Position numbers and translations under genes: made by a program
Notes under the pieces: model-generated
The model's input: only the letters and a program-made list of their open reading frames with translations
What the model was told of the DNA's origin: nothing
The model's database searches: none
Origin: Betaproteobacteria bacterium
GTDB lineage: Bacteria; Pseudomonadota; Gammaproteobacteria; Burkholderiales; SG8-39
DNA length: 32,408 nt
Assembly (NCBI GenBank): GCA_004298325.1
Contig: SCUF01000399.1
Location: 1 to 32,408, forward strand
Direction of reading: 5' to 3'
Shown here: positions 19,908 to 25,780 of the stretch, one piece after another
Position numbering within the stretch: the first letter of the stretch is position 1
Layout: each line of letters starts with the position of its first letter

Positions 19908-20689
19908 TACGGCGCTCCGAGGAGGTGCGACACCAGCTCCGCGAATCCCGCCCCGCAGGCACTCCGCGTCACGTAATTCGGCGCTGCCGCCAGCCGTCCC
20001 GAGAAGCGCGCCACGTTGGCGACCCCTACCGAGTGCTCGAAAAAGGCGAACATCGGCGCGTCGTTCGGCGAATCGCCGGCAAACACGAACTGCGCATTGG
20101 CGCGCTCCAGGTCGGTGCCGAAGCGCTCGGCGAACAGCCGCCGCGTCATGCCGAGCTTGTCGTAGTCGCCGAACCAGCCGTTGACGTGGATCGAACTGAT
20201 CTTCGCCGTGAGGCCCGCCTCGCGCATCAGCGCGGCGATGCGCTCGGCGTCTTCCAGCTCAAGCGCCGGCAGGTCCTCGCAGTAGTCGATGGCGAGATCG
20301 GATTCGCGATAGGCCTGGTCCGATGCGAGCGCGCAACCCGGCACCGCCGCGAGAATGCGGCGCGCGATGTCTCCCAGACGAGCGCGCTTTTCACGGCGCA
20401 CGGACTCGTCGTCCTGGAAGCGACGCAGCAGCCGGCCCTGATGATGCAGAAAGTAGAACGCGCCGTTCTCGCCCACCACCGCGTCGACCGGCCACAGGCG
20501 CGCGATCTGGTCGCACCAGCCGGCCGGACGTCCGGTGATCGGTACCGCGAGCCGGCCGGCCGCATGCCAGCGTTCCAGCGCACCATAGGCGGCGGCCGTG
20601 AGACGGCCTTCCGTGGTCAGCGTGTCGTCGATGTCGAACAGCAGGCCGCGGATGCCCTGCGCCGGCAGTTCGCCGAGCGGACGCATCAT
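19907..20689 (-). CDS. HAD-IIB family phosphatase (sugar-phosphate phosphatase type)
   Basis: This 260-residue haloacid-dehalogenase-fold phosphatase has motif I LLFDIDDTLT with nucleophile Asp19 and general-acid Asp21. Motif II is PITGRPAGW, and motif IV is FAGDSPNDAPMF, which binds magnesium. The insertion of a C2-type cap between motifs II and III fits the HAD-IIB/Cof group, which includes sucrose-, trehalose- and mannosyl-3-phosphoglycerate phosphatases. The ATG at 20689 overlaps the glpD stop (ATGATGA), and a second ATG follows directly. A long upstream in-frame extension is only glpD read in the wrong frame. Coupling to glpD suggests a phosphorylated three-carbon or glycosyl-glycerol type substrate, but this is inference. 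Confidence 0.85.
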   Translation of the reverse strand: MMRPLGELPAQGIRGLLFDIDDTLTTEGRLTAAAYGALERWHAAGRLAVPITGRPAGWCDQIARLWPVDAVVGENGAFYFLHHQGRLLRRFQDDESVRREKRARLGDIARRILAAVPGCALASDQAYRESDLAIDYCEDLPALELEDAERIAALMREAGLTAKISSIHVNGWFGDYDKLGMTRRLFAERFGTDLERANAQFVFAGDSPNDAPMFAFFEHSVGVANVARFSGRLAAAPNYVTRSACGAGFAELVSHLLGAP

Positions 20690-22188
20690 CGACCCATGCG
20701 CGCGGCGACACGCGCGCGCTGGGCCTCGGTCATGTGCAGCCCGCATTTGGTGCGTCGCCACAGCACATCTTCTGCGCTGCGCGCCCACTCGCGTTCGACG
20801 AGATAACCCACCTCGCGCTCGTGCAGGCCGGCGCCGAAATCTTCTCCGAGCTCGCCGTCGCCGACGACCTCCAGTGCGCGCGTGCCGTGGCGCCTGAAAA
20901 TGCCGCGCAGGCAATTGCGTCCGATACGCGGGCGGCGCGCAAACAGCGCTTCGCGCGCCGCCGCGCGGCCGGCAGCGCCAAAGTCGCTCCCGGGCAGGGG
21001 GGCGGTGGCGGTCCAGGCCGCCTTCATGGCGGGAAAGTACGGCGCGAGTTTCGCCACCGCCTGCTCGGCGAGTCTGCGATAGGTCGTGATCTTGCCGCCG
21101 AATACCGACAGCACGGGCGTCGTGCCCGCCGCGTCGTCGAGCCGCAAGGTGTAGTCGCGCGTCACCGCCGAGGGATCGCTCGTGCCGTCGTCGTATAGCG
21201 GGCGCACCCCGGCATAGCGCCACACGATGTCCTGCGGGCTCACCGGACGCGCGAGGTAGCGGTTCACCGCGCGGCAGAGGTAGTCCACCTCCTGCGCCGT
21301 CACAACGGGTGCCGCCGCCTCGGTCACGGGCACATCGGTGGTTCCCACGAGGGTGTAGCTTCCCTCGTAAGGGATCATGAACACCACGCGGCGGTCATCA
21401 TTCTGCAGCAGGAAAACATGCTCGCCCGCGTACAGTCGCGGCAGCACGATGTGGCTGCCCTTCACCAGGCGCACCGCATCGCCGGAAGGCTGCGCCAGCC
21501 GCTCGTTCAGCACCTGTTTGACCCAGGGGCCGGCGGCATTGACGATGGCGCGCGCGCGAACGCGCGTGCCGTCGGACAGCCCGACCTGCCAGACGCCATC
21601 GTGCCGCCGCGCCGAGACGCATTCGGTGCGCGTGCGGATGGCGGCGCCGAGTTCGGCCGCGCTGAGCGCATTCGCCACCACCAGACGCGCGTCGTCCACA
21701 CGGCAGTCCGAGTACTCGAAGCCATGCCGGAATTCCGGCTTCAGTCCGGCGTTGAGCGGCGGCAGGTCGAGCCGCACGCCGCGCGAGCCCGGCAGCGACG
21801 CACGCCCGGCGCCGAGTGACGGCGCCAGCCGGCCGAGACGGTCGTACAGGAAAAGCCCCGCGCGAATCATCCAGCGCGGTCGCAGCTCCGGCACGTGCGG
21901 CATGATGAAACGCGCCGGCCAGACGAGATGGCGCGCGATCGCGAGCATGACTTCGCGCTCGGCCAGCGCCTCGGCCACCAGGCGGAACTCGTAGTGCTCC
22001 AGATAACGCAGGCCGCCATGGATCAGCTTCGAAGACCACGACGAGGTGGCGCTCGCCAGATCGTCCTTTTCCGCCAGGATCACCGACAGGCCGCGTCCCG
22101 CCGCATCGCGCGCGATGCCGGCGCCGTTGACGCCGCCGCCCACGACCAGAAGGTCGACCGTGCCCCCCGGGGAATCGTGCGATTGCAA
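20686..22188 (-). CDS. glpD: Aerobic glycerol-3-phosphate dehydrogenase
   Basis: The 500-residue membrane-associated flavoenzyme oxidises sn-glycerol-3-phosphate to dihydroxyacetone phosphate and reduces quinone. It has the FAD Rossmann motif LLVVGGGVNGAGIARDAAGR at about residues 13-32, and ATSSWSSKLIHGGLRYLEHYEFRLV, the GlpD fingerprint, at 47-71. Also present are FEYSDCRVDDARLV, NAAGPWVKQVL, and RYAGVRPLYDDG followed by SVFGGKITTYRRLAE. The C-terminal DEWARR-like region appears as VEREWARSAEDVLWRRTKCG. Start is TTG 22188, because no ATG or GTG lies close enough upstream of the FAD motif. No good ribosome site is visible, but the kinase stop is only 8 bases upstream. No glpK or glpF is present in the window. 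Confidence 0.95.
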   Translation of the reverse strand: MQSHDSPGGTVDLLVVGGGVNGAGIARDAAGRGLSVILAEKDDLASATSSWSSKLIHGGLRYLEHYEFRLVAEALAEREVMLAIARHLVWPARFIMPHVPELRPRWMIRAGLFLYDRLGRLAPSLGAGRASLPGSRGVRLDLPPLNAGLKPEFRHGFEYSDCRVDDARLVVANALSAAELGAAIRTRTECVSARRHDGVWQVGLSDGTRVRARAIVNAAGPWVKQVLNERLAQPSGDAVRLVKGSHIVLPRLYAGEHVFLLQNDDRRVVFMIPYEGSYTLVGTTDVPVTEAAAPVVTAQEVDYLCRAVNRYLARPVSPQDIVWRYAGVRPLYDDGTSDPSAVTRDYTLRLDDAAGTTPVLSVFGGKITTYRRLAEQAVAKLAPYFPAMKAAWTATAPLPGSDFGAAGRAAAREALFARRPRIGRNCLRGIFRRHGTRALEVVGDGELGEDFGAGLHEREVGYLVEREWARSAEDVLWRRTKCGLHMTEAQRARVAARMGR

Positions 22189-22196
22189 GCGGCGGA

Positions 22197-23801
22197 TTAT
22201 AAGGTCGGTTCGCGCGCCGCCCTCAGATTGGCGGTGACAGCGACACCGCTGCCGCCCGGCAGATTTTCGGCGCGCAGGCTGCCGCCGTGAAATTCGGCGA
22301 TCAGGCGCGCCACGTACAGCCCGAGCCCCAGGTGCGGCGCGTCGCCGGAGCGCGCAGCGCGCTGCGAAACCATCGACTCGAAAAGCGATTCGCGGATCGC
22401 CTCCGGCAGGGACGGTCCCGCGTTTTCGACGCGAAGGCTCGCGTCCGCGCCGAGGACGATCCGCACCGTCGTGCCGGGGGCCTGAAAGTCGACCGCGTTC
22501 TCGACCAGCTTGTCGAGCATCTGCGCGAGCAGGTCGGCGCTGCCGTCGAGCGTCACCGGGACCGCAGGCACCGCAACTTCAAATGCGGTGCGCGCGTACG
22601 CCAGGCGGTAGCCCTCGGCGCAGCCGCGCACCACGGGCACCGCGTCGTAGCGCTCGCGCGCCTCCGTAGACAGGCTCTGCTCCAGGCGGCTCGCCTCGGC
22701 CATGCGCGCGAGGATCGCGCTGAGCCGGCCGAGCCCCTCTTCCGCGCGCTTGAGGTAGGTGCGGGCCTCCTCGTCGCCGCGCGCGGCATGCAGATTTTCC
22801 AGCGACGATCGCACCACGGCGATCGGTGTGCGCAGCTCGTGCGACAGCCGCCCGGCCATGCCCTCGAGATAGGCATTGTAGCGGCTCATGCGTCGCAGCA
22901 CCGTGGTGAAGCTGCGCGAGAGATCGCCGATTTCGTCGCCCGCGCCGGAGGCCGTCAGCAGCCGGGTGACGCGACCGTGCGCGTCGATCGCGGCTTCGGC
23001 CTCGTCGCGCAGTCTGCGGATGCGGCTGGAGATGCGCGTCGCAAACCACAGCAGCACCGCCCCGACCAGGGCAAACACTGCCAGCGTCACCGTCAGCAGC
23101 CGCTCGAGCGCCTGGTTGGTGAAAGACGCGATGCGATTCGTCGTTTCCTCGGCAACCACCGCGCCGTACACCTGATCGCCGACCCAGATCGGGTGCGCTG
23201 CGGAGACGATGCGCGCGCGGCCGTCGCGCGTGTTGCGCGTGCGCTCGCCCGCCGCGCCCTGCAGCGCGGAGGCGATTTCGCGCCCGGCGCCGAGCGCTTC
23301 GTCGGCAATCGCCTCGTCGAAGTCCTCCGTCGGGGCGCCGATCAGCCAGCCCAGGGCGGCCTGCACGACGCCGGGCCGCTCCGGTTCGGGCCGCCGCAGC
23401 GACCCCGCGAGCGCCAGCACGCGATAGTCGCGGCTCACCACCCAGACGCGCGAGCTGGCGCGCGCCACCCCTTTCAGGATGGCGGCAATCTCGGCATTGG
23501 CGGCGGATCCTGCATCCGGAGTCTCGCTCGCGCCAAGCAGCGAAGTGCCGCCGGCAAGGCGCTGCAGCTCGCGCTCGGCTTCGCGGCGCAGCTCGGATTC
23601 GTCCGCCGAGCGGTAGGCCAGCAGCTGGGGCCGGTCGTGCAGCGCCGTCGCCACGGCGCGCGCAGTGGCTGCGAGTGCCGCCTCCTGCGCGCCGAGCAGG
23701 AAACGCTCCATTTCGCGCACGTAGCGATAGCCCGCCCAAGGCAGCGCAAGCAGCACCAGCGCCACCAGCGCGAGCTTCGCGCGCAGCGTGAGCCGGTTCA
23801 A
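22197..23801 (-). CDS. Sensor histidine kinase resembling the proteobacterial dedicated-sortase system kinase
   Basis: This 534-residue inner-membrane sensor kinase has a first membrane helix at about residues 8-25, a periplasmic sensor domain of about 200 residues, a second helix near 235-253, a HAMP linker, and a HisKA dimerisation domain with RLSHELRTPIAVVRSS (phospho-accepting His near residue 321). The ATPase domain follows, with N-box LVENAVDF and G-box HLGLGLYVARLIAEFHGG. From memory, the combination with the adjacent regulator resembles the PdsS/PdsR pair of the dedicated sortase system. That assignment is not proven. The start is TTG 23801, one base after the regulator stop. A start further in would remove part of the first helix. 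The signal sensed is unknown. Confidence 0.88.
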   Translation of the reverse strand: MNRLTLRAKLALVALVLLALPWAGYRYVREMERFLLGAQEAALAATARAVATALHDRPQLLAYRSADESELRREAERELQRLAGGTSLLGASETPDAGSAANAEIAAILKGVARASSRVWVVSRDYRVLALAGSLRRPEPERPGVVQAALGWLIGAPTEDFDEAIADEALGAGREIASALQGAAGERTRNTRDGRARIVSAAHPIWVGDQVYGAVVAEETTNRIASFTNQALERLLTVTLAVFALVGAVLLWFATRISSRIRRLRDEAEAAIDAHGRVTRLLTASGAGDEIGDLSRSFTTVLRRMSRYNAYLEGMAGRLSHELRTPIAVVRSSLENLHAARGDEEARTYLKRAEEGLGRLSAILARMAEASRLEQSLSTEARERYDAVPVVRGCAEGYRLAYARTAFEVAVPAVPVTLDGSADLLAQMLDKLVENAVDFQAPGTTVRIVLGADASLRVENAGPSLPEAIRESLFESMVSQRAARSGDAPHLGLGLYVARLIAEFHGGSLRAENLPGGSGVAVTANLRAAREPTL

Positions 23802-23802
23802 G

Positions 23803-24492
23803 TCAGGCCTGCCAGCGGTAGCCGAGGCCGTAGACCGTCTCGATGGCGTCGAAGGCGGGGTCGGCCGCGAGGAATTTGGCGCGCACGCGCTTGACGTGCG
23901 AAGTAATGGTGGCGTCGTCGACGACCAGTTCGGCGTCCCGCATCAGCTGTTCGCGGTTCTTGACATGCCCGGGATGGCGCGCCAGCGAATGCACGATCCA
24001 GAACTCGGTCAGCGTGAGGTCGATGCGGTTCCCTTTCCAGTGCGCACTGAAGCGCTTCAGGTCGAGTTCGAGCGCGCCGCGCGCGATCCTTTCCTCCACC
24101 GGCCGCTCCTCGCCCAGCGCATCGACGCGACGAAACAGCGCCGCGACGCGCGCCAGCAGGTGCGGCAGGCTCACGCCCTTGGTGAGATAGTCATCGGCGC
24201 CCATGCGCAGGCCGGAGACGACGTCGAAATCCGAGTCGCGTGCGGTCAGGAATACGATCGGCAGCTGCGCCGATAGCGCGCGCAGCTCGCGGCACAGGGC
24301 AAAGCCGCCGTCTGCCTCGTCGCCCAGGCCGATGTCGATGATCGCCAGATCGGGCAGGCGGACGCGACACGCCGCCAGCGCCGCGCGACGGCTGTCGTAG
24401 GCCGCGACCTCATAGCCGTGGCGCTTGAGCGCCTCGGCATAATTGGCCCGGATGGCCGGTTCGTCCTCGACCAGCGCGATGCGGCGGGGCAT
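23803..24492 (-). CDS. OmpR-family response regulator, partner of the adjacent kinase
   Basis: This 229-residue DNA-binding regulator has a receiver domain with the acidic pair Glu9/Asp10, phospho-acceptor Asp53 (LAIIDIGLGDE), the switch Thr in FLTARDSDFDVV and the conserved Lys in DDYLTKG. A winged-helix output domain spans about residues 130-229, ending VYGLGYRWQA. The wording of the receiver (DGGFALCRELRALSAQLP, then ARDSDFD and LRMGADDYLTK) is close to what I recall of the proteobacterial dedicated sortase system response regulator. ATG at 24492 lies only three bases after a TATATT box (24501-24496), so the message may have almost no leader. The gene is divergent from the tiny membrane protein gene at 24620. 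Confidence 0.93.
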   Translation of the reverse strand: MPRRIALVEDEPAIRANYAEALKRHGYEVAAYDSRRAALAACRVRLPDLAIIDIGLGDEADGGFALCRELRALSAQLPIVFLTARDSDFDVVSGLRMGADDYLTKGVSLPHLLARVAALFRRVDALGEERPVEERIARGALELDLKRFSAHWKGNRIDLTLTEFWIVHSLARHPGHVKNREQLMRDAELVVDDATITSHVKRVRAKFLAADPAFDAIETVYGLGYRWQA

Positions 24493-24619
24493 GCGCCGAA
24501 TATACCGGAACGCGCGGCGTCATTTTTCCTGCATGTTTTGTCGCGCGCCTGCCCGCTTTGGCGCCCGCTGCTTGCGGTTTCATCGGTTGCAATGTCGCTG
24601 ACTGCCGAGGAGATTGCGC

Positions 24620-24796
24620 ATGGCCAAATCCCGCACTTTCGCGCTCGAGATCGTGACCCAGACGGCGCTCGCCCTCGCCATCGGGCTCGCCGTCAGCATC
24701 GTCCTCGCCGGCGCCGCGCTGCTGCTCGCCGCCCACGCACAGGCCGGCGCGCCATCGGCAGGCGCGGCGACGAGCGTACCGGCCGCGGGCGCATGA
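24620..24796 (+). CDS. Small membrane protein of unknown function (58 residues)
   Basis: An ORF from ATG 24620 encodes a short positively charged N-terminus (MAKSRTF), one long hydrophobic helix at about residues 9-38 and a small Ala/Gly/Pro-rich tail. A GAGGAGA ribosome site (24607-24613) is well placed. It diverges from the response regulator with 127 bases between the starts, so it could be a target of that regulator. I do not recognise a family. The helix could be a signal anchor or an uncleaved signal peptide with the tail outside. Its stop overlaps the next ORF by ATGA. Confidence 0.6.
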   Translation: MAKSRTFALEIVTQTALALAIGLAVSIVLAGAALLLAAHAQAGAPSAGAATSVPAAGA

Positions 24797-24975
24797 TCAA
24801 GCCCGCAGGCGAGGGCGACGTTGCGCTCGGTGTCGAGTGCGCACTGCCCGCAGCCTATCCGCGCGGCAGCGGGCTGGCACGCGGCGATGGTCCCCTGGCG
24901 CGCGGCGCGAAGGCAGCGCTGCGGGCCGTCCGCCGCTTGAACAAGCGAACGCGCTGGCAGCAGCAGCGTCGCTGA
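24793..24975 (+). CDS. Hypothetical basic 60-residue ORF
   Basis: This ORF starts at ATG 24793, overlapping the stop of the small membrane protein gene (ATGA), and ends TGA 24975. The product is glycine/alanine-rich at first and strongly basic at the end (LNKRTRWQQQRR). No domain is recognised. The overlap suggests translational coupling, but the DNA is GC-rich enough for an open frame of this length by chance. Confidence 0.3.
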   Translation: MIKPAGEGDVALGVECALPAAYPRGSGLARGDGPLARGAKAALRAVRRLNKRTRWQQQRR

Positions 24976-25005
24976 GAGACCGCGGCGGCGGCGGCGCCGG
25001 ACTGG

Positions 25006-25109
25006 AAAGGAGGTCGGGAGAATTGCTCCGGATGCCGCCCGCCGCTTCGGCACGCGCTTGCGCGCGCGCCTCGAAGCCGGTCAAATCGGGGCCGTGGGCG
25101 CGCACCTGA
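25006..25109 (+). other. Strong ribosome site with short ORF overlapping the GST start
   Basis: AAAGGAGGT (25006-25014) is the best Shine-Dalgarno in this stretch, but it is not close to the GST start. Eight bases after it a TTG (25023) opens a 28-residue ORF, with an in-frame ATG at 25032, ending TGA 25107-25109. That is 13 bases inside the GST gene, in another frame. It may be a coupling leader, or the real GST start may lie differently. The upstream part of this 118-base gap also holds a short GGC repeat (about 24983-24995). Confidence 0.3.
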
Positions 25110-25780
25110 CGCTGGTCATTGCCAACAAGAACTATTCGTCCTGGTCGATGCGACCGTGGCTGGCGTTGCGTTCGGCCGGCATCCCATTTCGCGAGCGGCA
25201 GCTGAAGTTCGAATCGCAGGATTGGGCGGAGCACATCGGCACGCACTCGCCATCGGGGCTCGTGCCCGTCTTGTGGGAGGGCGAACCCGGAACCGGCTTT
25301 GCCACCTGGGACACGCTTGCGATCATCGAGCGCGCGCACGAGCTTTTCCCTGCGCACGGCGTCTGGCCGGCGGATCCGCGCGCGCGCGCCCGGGCGCGCT
25401 CGATCTGCGCCGAGATGCATGCGGGCTTTCGCGCACTGCGCGGCACCATGCCGATGAACATCCGCGGTCGCTATCCGGGCAAGGGCATGAACCCCGAGGT
25501 GGCGACGGACATCGCCCGCATCGCTGCGCTGTGGGAGGACGCGCGCCGCCATTTCGGCCGCGGCGGAGCCTATCTGTTCGGTGCCTTTTGCGCCGCGGAT
25601 GCCTACTATGCTCCGGTCGCGACGCGCTTCGTCACCTATGGCGTCGCGCTCACGGGGGACGCGGGTGCGTATCAGCAGGCGCTACTGGAGGCTCCGGCGG
25701 TTCGTGACTGGTGCGGCGCCGCAGCCCAGGAGACCGAGTTCGTCGCTGCGGACGAGCCGTACGTGACGGCACCGAGATAA
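25094..25780 (+). CDS. Glutathione S-transferase family protein
   Basis: This protein of about 228 residues has the N-terminal thioredoxin-like domain [20 protein letters not shown], followed by [13 protein letters not shown] (the cis-Pro region that holds glutathione) and [16 protein letters not shown], the usual Glu-Ser/Thr region here written D-T. A helical C-terminal domain follows, with [20 protein letters not shown]. Members conjugate or reduce electrophiles with glutathione in the cytoplasm. GTG 25094 is preferred because homologous sequence starts about there. TTG 25058 in the same frame would add 12 arginine-rich residues. The stop lies 5 bases before the racemase TTG, suggesting an operon. 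Confidence 0.88.

Follow-up and report, generated by a model that had tools for sequence, protein, structure and literature searches.

The dedicated sortase system brings together four protein families, namely a sortase (TIGR03784, now described as class GN sortase), a sensor histidine kinase (HK; TIGR03785), a response regulator (RR; TIGR03787) and a sortase target (TIGR03788). Class GN sortases are called poorly described in PMC10581121, and their role in Gram-negative bacteria unknown. A second point of reference is MgrB, a 47-residue membrane protein of the PhoQ/PhoP regulon that inhibits PhoQ, where the membrane region mediates the interaction with PhoQ and two lysines at the cytoplasmic end interact with R219 at the junction of the second transmembrane helix and the HAMP domain (PMC8404706). 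The locus described here comes from a Betaproteobacteria bacterium (SG8-39; assembly GCA_004298325.1, contig SCUF01000399.1, positions 1 to 32,408, forward strand), and this whole stretch of 32,408 nucleotides is referred to as the window. It carries an HK and an RR of the dedicated sortase family and, divergent from them, two tiny open reading frames (ORFs), ORF1 and ORF2. The locus is probably a class GN dedicated sortase system that has been stripped to its signalling part, with stubs of the target and the sortase kept to work with the kinase.

The two-component pair

The HK gene (22197-23801, minus strand) encodes 534 amino acids of the dedicated-sortase type in a short-sensor form, and begins with TTG one base from the stop codon of the OmpR-family RR gene (23803-24492, minus strand; 229 amino acids). 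A gap of 127 bases (24493-24619) separates the RR from the divergent ORF1 of 58 residues. An earlier, sequence-only reading of this DNA had given the same layout, which is confirmed at these positions, and the receiver stretches that it quoted do occur in the RR translation. It had also likened the pair to the dedicated sortase group, an assignment that profile searches bear out. The best NCBIfam model for the RR is TIGR03787 (2.1e-112; 374.1 bits against a curated cut-off of 335.7; model positions 1-226 of 227), with CreB as the next-best family at 164.9 bits, and by the curated cut-off the RR is a member of the TIGR03787 family. For the HK the best model is TIGR03785 (1.5e-155; residues 102-526 on model positions 258-702), followed by CreC at 135.6 and ChvG at 119.5 bits. 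The profile check that had been proposed for both proteins is therefore cleared by the RR, but the HK, at 519.3 bits, is a best match that stays under the curated cut-off of 612.2. The same is true of 20 (own included) of the 47 RR-bearing genomes with a TIGR03785 match, some of them with a sortase (G014 and G119; genomes and loci are given by G and L numbers). A placement in ordinary OmpR/EnvZ groups, which would have spoken against the assignment, did not come out, the best models being those of the dedicated sortase family. The kinase carries HisKA and HATPase_c domains, and SHELRTP is invariant in 12 of 12 aligned kinases.

ORF1 and ORF2 as stubs of target and sortase

ORF1 (24620-24796, plus strand), which counts 58 amino acids from its ATG and has one strong helix, occupies the place where the target starts in intact loci. 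A profile was made from nine target N-termini (L111, L114, L141, L144, L159, L162, L191, L195 and L197, the L162 sequence coming from the start of a damaged target and that of L144 from a target in two frames) and searched against 477 ORFs, taken from 69 loci, that encode a hydrophobic helix. ORF1 matches it at E=1.7e-9, as a free-standing N-terminal signal/membrane helix of a class GN sortase target. At E<=0.01 there are 39 matches, comprising six training rows and 33 others, and by our count all 33 are RR-divergent; in some the start offset is negative, as their open frame extends upstream. Among the matches the helix is joined to additional residues in L109, L146 and L164, and the sortase is still present in L147 and L158. 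The first unrelated match comes at E=0.035. The tiny membrane protein of the earlier reading is no unrelated neighbour but a homologue of the helix with which the sortase target begins.

The second small frame, ORF2 (24793-24975, plus strand; 60 amino acids), was absent from the supplied list of ORFs and missed in the earlier reading. It overlaps ORF1 by four bases, ATGA, has the N-terminus MIKPAGEGDVALGVECALP, and by motif and profile corresponds to the N-terminal peptide of a class GN sortase (GDVALGVECALP) followed by an unconserved tail. This sortase-start motif is present in the class GN sortases of the related betaproteobacterial loci L111, L114, L156, L158 and L170, with variants (AWGAECAWP, ALGVECAWT) in L141, L144 and L159, and is not seen in L169 nor in gammaproteobacteria. 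A profile of those five sortase N-termini, of which the L158 sortase is under the family cut-off, was run against the 13,596 ORFs of the 69 loci. The window ORF2 was found with an independent E-value (iE) of 2.3e-5, and 14 reduced loci, the window included, at iE<0.03; three additional intact sortases lie at iE 0.025-0.24 and the first chance match at 0.34. This profile gives no significant match for two reduced loci whose motifs are variants (L153 at 0.41, L146 at 7.8). As the stubs are homologous to the starts of target and sortase, it follows that both genes were shortened where they stood, leaving N-terminal stubs.

The helix itself has a signature, [DE]-x11-G-x3-[SAG], which in ORF1 is represented by E10, G22 and S26. 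In the 33 non-training helices aligned at HMMER's inclusion threshold, whose rows are mutually related, one column holds D or E in 29 of 30, G follows twelve residues later in 32 of 33 and S, A or G four further on in all 33. The nine training helices have D/E in 8/9 and G in 5/9 at those columns on our reading of the alignment. When sought as a strict pattern in an uncharged helix at the RR-divergent place, the signature is found in 33 of 88 listed loci (loci without an RR were skipped), four of which are intact targets (L144, L169, L191 and L195) and one of which, that of L220, is in another protein; elsewhere it occurs three times in 915 kb of six-frame sequence. It is also present in the sortase-less gammaproteobacterial loci L171, L182, L183, L186 and L189. 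Free motif-bearing helices adjoin the pair in many betaproteobacteria and a few gammaproteobacteria. In several gammaproteobacterial loci (L179, L175 and L208) the RR and a tiny helix are separated by an ORF of ~230-250 amino acids, perhaps the OmpA-like partner pdsO; the L175 helix falls short of significance with the target N-termini profile.

Intact, half-decayed and reduced relatives

L169, an intact locus, is arranged HK - RR <-> target -> sortase, with target and sortase overlapping by four bases. L111 has the same order, with a 719-residue target (808.9 bits, TIGR03788) and a 238-residue sortase (218.2 bits, TIGR03784). Loss in place is seen by setting intact L169, L111, L114, L141 and L159 against the syntenic stubs in the window, and a number of loci are caught part of the way. 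For instance, genome G308 has glpD, HK, RR and a target start with an internal gap on one contig, and on another a sortase that ends at about position 134 of the 174-position model, followed by a hairpin and a glutathione S-transferase (GST) gene that is 70% identical to that of the window. In L146 and L164 the target start is fused to a stretch from near the target's end (in L146 matching TIGR03788 positions 541-576, E=1.1e-5) and only the N-tail and a helix are left of the sortase. With these stages, an ancestral glpD - HK - RR <-> target -> sortase - GST arrangement is the simplest start. L162 and L158 are not fully intact either. The counts omit L105-L107 where L139, L138 and L137, with identical matches, stood in, as well as L117 and L118 (no RR within the stretch) and L126 and L127 (too distant).

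A tree of the joined RR and HK sequences (43 rows) groups the seven loci closest to the window in one clade with support 100/100, and every one of them is reduced. Outside this clade intact and reduced loci interleave; L143, which counts as intact on account of partner contig L144, has the reduced L151 as its sister (100/99). The state of helix plus N-tail (15 rows) takes five changes, at least three of them forced by starred branches, and the reduced state would accordingly seem to have arisen more than once. In G296 and G298 target and sortase are on a separate contig and a free motif-bearing helix still adjoins the RR (L154 and L155), so that the helix goes with the pair rather than with the target. 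The target of L156 begins with a different signal peptide, and that of L170 has the D but with A in place of G.

Distribution of sortase and target

The assembly of the window (4.02 Mb, 492 contigs, 88.45% complete) has no TIGR03784 sortase at E<=0.001 and no PF04203 match at E<=0.1, and no sortase adjoins the pair, as the sequence-only reading had said. Its suggestion that the sortase may lie elsewhere does not hold up: the genome search it had called for found none in the genome itself nor in the genus, where among five genomes (own plus four congeners, each 73-88% complete) TIGR03784 occurs in 0/5 and the TIGR03788 target in 0/5, with the RR in 5/5. In the window, the place that the two genes occupy in relatives holds the N-terminal stubs. 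Across the 61 genomes of the window and its 60 relatives, the RR is found in 31 at E<=1e-70 (29 over the cut-off), the sortase in nine at E<=0.001 (seven over the cut-off), and the target over the cut-off in five, or in 15 at E<=1e-10. A class-wide draw of 274 genomes gave the RR in 49 at E<=1e-80 (44 over the cut-off) and the sortase in 39 at E<=1e-10 (35 over the cut-off). When the two lists are compared, a sortase match accompanies the RR in 26 of 49 genomes and is absent from the other 23, and pairs without a TIGR03784 sortase are therefore common. Own genome aside, 22 class genomes have an RR and no TIGR03784 match, and the loci of 20 of these were fetched (G194 and G256 left out).

Some sortases are diverged. 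Those of L158 (G302; 106.8 bits) and L147 (G285; 56.6 bits) fall under the TIGR03784 cut-off and adjoin the pair plus a tiny helix, and neither genome has a TIGR03788 target at E<=1e-10. The target of L144 (G280) reads in two frames (TIGR03788 1-305 and 326-628) beside a sortase over the cut-off, which looks like a frameshift or an assembly error.

Selection on the stubs

Constraint on the stubs was gauged by three independent codon contrasts within the seven-locus clade, where synonymous distances of the RR are ~0.55-0.95 (0.15 for the near pair of the window and L105). For ORF1 residues 2-38 the pooled proportions of synonymous (pS) and nonsynonymous (pN) differences are 0.47 and 0.23 (p=2e-5), and for ORF2 from its start to the end of the motif 0.58 and 0.21 (p=4e-5); the 12 motif codons alone, picked after seeing them, give p=6e-6. 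Behind the motif pS is 0.69 and pN 0.62 (p=0.27), a weak control because the tail is aligned without gaps and possibly partly out of register. The four-base overlap between ORF1 and ORF2 is found in six of the seven clade loci with the starts used, and in L108 too via an upstream ATG. By these codon counts the heads of ORF1 and ORF2 are under purifying selection.

The strongest competitor is that ORF1 and ORF2 are dying relics of deletions, functionless, whose apparent constraint predates the loss. The half-decayed stages (L109, L146, L164 and G308), the unconstrained part of ORF2 and an L108/L145 contrast in which ORF1 shows no constraint would all suit such relics. Against this reading, all seven loci of the clade are reduced and keep the four-base overlap despite the synonymous distances of their regulators, the heads stay constrained over that divergence, equivalent pieces survive in separate lineages, and the free helices share a near-invariant D..G..S. 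Mere decay is for these reasons regarded as unlikely, although it retains an appreciable share of the probability.

Promoter region, flanking genes and remaining alternatives

The gap between RR and ORF1 holds a probable RR box, with 11-bp direct repeats (CGTCATTTTTCC TGCATGTTTTG ... CCTGCCC) at 24518-24555. It was located with a weight matrix built from 34/35 other intergenic regions (repeats TGCCATnTTTnTGCCAnAATT) and is the best site on either strand of the window at 16.4 bits, the next reaching 4.7. All seven loci of the clade have the box at an equal offset (11.5-41.6 bits), and binding by the RR is a plausible function for this putative site. A strict form of the box pattern occurs once in the genome, at the RR-ORF1 gap; this form is neither complete nor specific, because three of the five genus members have no match and some genomes without an RR do. 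On the minus strand a -10-like TATATT (24499-24504), a candidate promoter element, stands so near to the RR start codon that the gene may be transcribed as a leaderless message; AATATACC/ACTATACC are enriched in 51 intergenic regions and the TATATT arrangement recurs in many related loci.

This promoter bears on the proposal, made in the sequence-only reading, that the pair was re-purposed. The pair would then serve new genes such as glpD or the GST gene, with the small ORFs incidental. On one side glpD (20686-22188, minus strand; NF008899, 689.5 bits), already named as a neighbour and confirmed as such downstream of the HK, has matches near the HK in many relatives, and a GST-like ORF (25058-25780, plus strand; its true start may lie inside), the syntenic neighbour on the ORF2 side, recurs in L105-L108, L140, L145, L152 and L163, so that these two genes flank the pair in several relatives. 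Against this, the sole window site above 5 bits sits between RR and ORF1, and the strict pattern, although strict enough to miss sites, is found nowhere else in the genome. With the box retained here and the strict pattern found once, no new regulon is seen, and re-purposing is improbable.

Between ORF2 and the GST gene lies a conserved GC-rich hairpin element (24979-25052, plus strand; ACCGCGG...GGAAAGGAGG...CTTCGGCA), present as a single copy in each of 7/61 genomes, where it precedes the GST gene or, in G283, is one ORF away. Of its 20 predicted pairs four have changes on both sides; the element has no Rfam family at gathering score, and for two of three sequences the single-sequence fold is no better than shuffles. 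A match to M23 came out at 19.5 bits against 41.2. ORF1-ORF2 could in principle be a leader whose translation, or hairpin, controls the GST gene rather than the kinase, given the conserved hairpin that precedes GST in the genus and in G308, behind ORF2 or the cut sortase, but free helices occur in many loci without hairpin or GST and the constraint falls on amino-acid changes, which makes this a very improbable account. Least credible is that sortase and target exist but escaped the searches, at some other place in the genome or within the ~12% not assembled. Although the assembly is incomplete and in many contigs, and G296 and G298 do have unlinked target-sortase loci, each of the two models is matched in 0/5 genus genomes (each 73-88% complete) and the locus itself carries the sortase and target stubs.

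Sensor region of the kinase

Some relatives have long kinases with a CBM9-like sensor segment, a criterion that is our own reading of the part of the TIGR03785 model left unmatched. They comprise L169, with a weak, sub-threshold Pfam match (CBM9_1, 20.2 bits against a cut-off of 23.4), and, by tblastn, L166, L167 and L120-L125; in these the segment hints at a carbohydrate or cell-wall signal. The window HK has no match when compared with the L169 segment. Loss of this segment was considered as a cause or mark of sortase loss and ruled out by L111, L114, L141 and L159, whose kinases also lack it yet which have kept target and sortase; its absence is for that reason uninformative on the matter. 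An AlphaFold model of the window kinase (mean pLDDT 68, pTM 0.42) finds histidine kinases, their cores, phytochromes and similar proteins among the 50 PDB rows listed, and model and matches are uninformative about the sensor.

Proposed mechanism

Family membership, loss in place, the stubs, their constraint and the retained box are what the comparison of genes shows. The ancestral glpD - HK - RR <-> target -> sortase - GST locus lost the body of the target, with its VIT/VWA domains, and the sortase domain, and retained the HK and RR, the probable box in the divergent promoter, the ORF1 helix, the ORF2 peptide and their ATGA coupling, the stubs presumably because they function with the kinase. 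Phosphorylated RR would act at the 11-bp-repeat box on both sides, controlling its own operon and ORF1-ORF2. ORF1 would insert as a single helix, acidic at its cytoplasmic edge and presenting a G-x3-S face, that might pack against the membrane helices of the kinase and tune it as MgrB does PhoQ, while the head of ORF2 could act on the cytoplasmic side. In intact systems, where the helix is part of the target, it would be the means by which the kinase detects that protein. The helix is thus best read as partnering the kinase in the membrane and as having been retained, in the manner of MgrB, as a small protein of its own, which suggests that the membrane helix of the substrate may have been part of the signalling all along.

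A number of points weigh against this account. The stub pieces are short. A count over unaligned hydrophobic windows shows no acidic excess before the helix (19/36 against 187/410, p=0.49), though that count is not in register and the profile-aligned 29/30 is relied on instead. The strict motif is missing from 55 of the 88 listed loci, including intact L111, L114, L141 and L159 and most gammaproteobacteria, and gammaproteobacteria without a sortase rarely keep the helix (4/20 fetched loci at E<=0.01: L171, L179, L183 and L189). Taken alone, the L108/L145 contrast gives no constraint on ORF1 (pS 0.24, pN 0.26). Recombination may have restored some loci, which could account for part of the mixing of intact and reduced branches; G283 and G308 carry one genus code but fall in different clades of the two-component tree; and the direction, a target helix freed as opposed to a free helix fused, is shown only where sortase or target remnants persist.

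A broader proposal, on which the balance is about even, is that the N-terminal helix of the target is a dedicated ligand of its own sensor kinase, marked by [DE]-x11-G-x3-[SAG]. Several lineages would have kept it free, at 40-60 residues, after loss of target and sortase, and some keep it beside the pair with the target unlinked, which would make a new family of small kinase regulators; the GVECALP tail of the sortase would be a second, cytoplasmic piece in one betaproteobacterial group. The natural deletions single out what the signalling pair seems to require of target and sortase, an acidic-edge G-x3-S helix and a short sortase tail, and if this is correct they would show how a signal peptide can turn into a small regulatory protein. 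The reduced loci also make the signal of the class GN sortase pair directly testable.

Comparison with known systems

The open-licence literature covered gave no published account of sortase-less relics of a dedicated sortase system, which does not show that there is none. The components are those of a known system; a stripped version whose stubs are under selection, and a freed helix in the part of a partner, are apparently new. CreB/CreC and ChvG-type pairs are the next-best families for the RR (CreB) and the HK (CreC, ChvG), but at far lower scores (164.9, 135.6 and 119.5 bits). The dedicated sortase system (TIGR03784, TIGR03785, TIGR03787 and TIGR03788) is shared in the RR over its cut-off, the best match of the HK, the divergent order, the probable RR box and the N-terminal pieces of target and sortase, whereas the window has no sortase domain, no VIT/VWA target and an HK without the CBM9-like segment. 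With MgrB, as portrayed in PMC8404706, ORF1 differs in sequence and in origin, coming from the N-terminal helix of a sortase target, and its contact with the kinase is putative; what the two have in common is a single-pass protein of ~50 residues that adjoins its pair, is probably controlled by it, and carries charge at the cytoplasmic edge.

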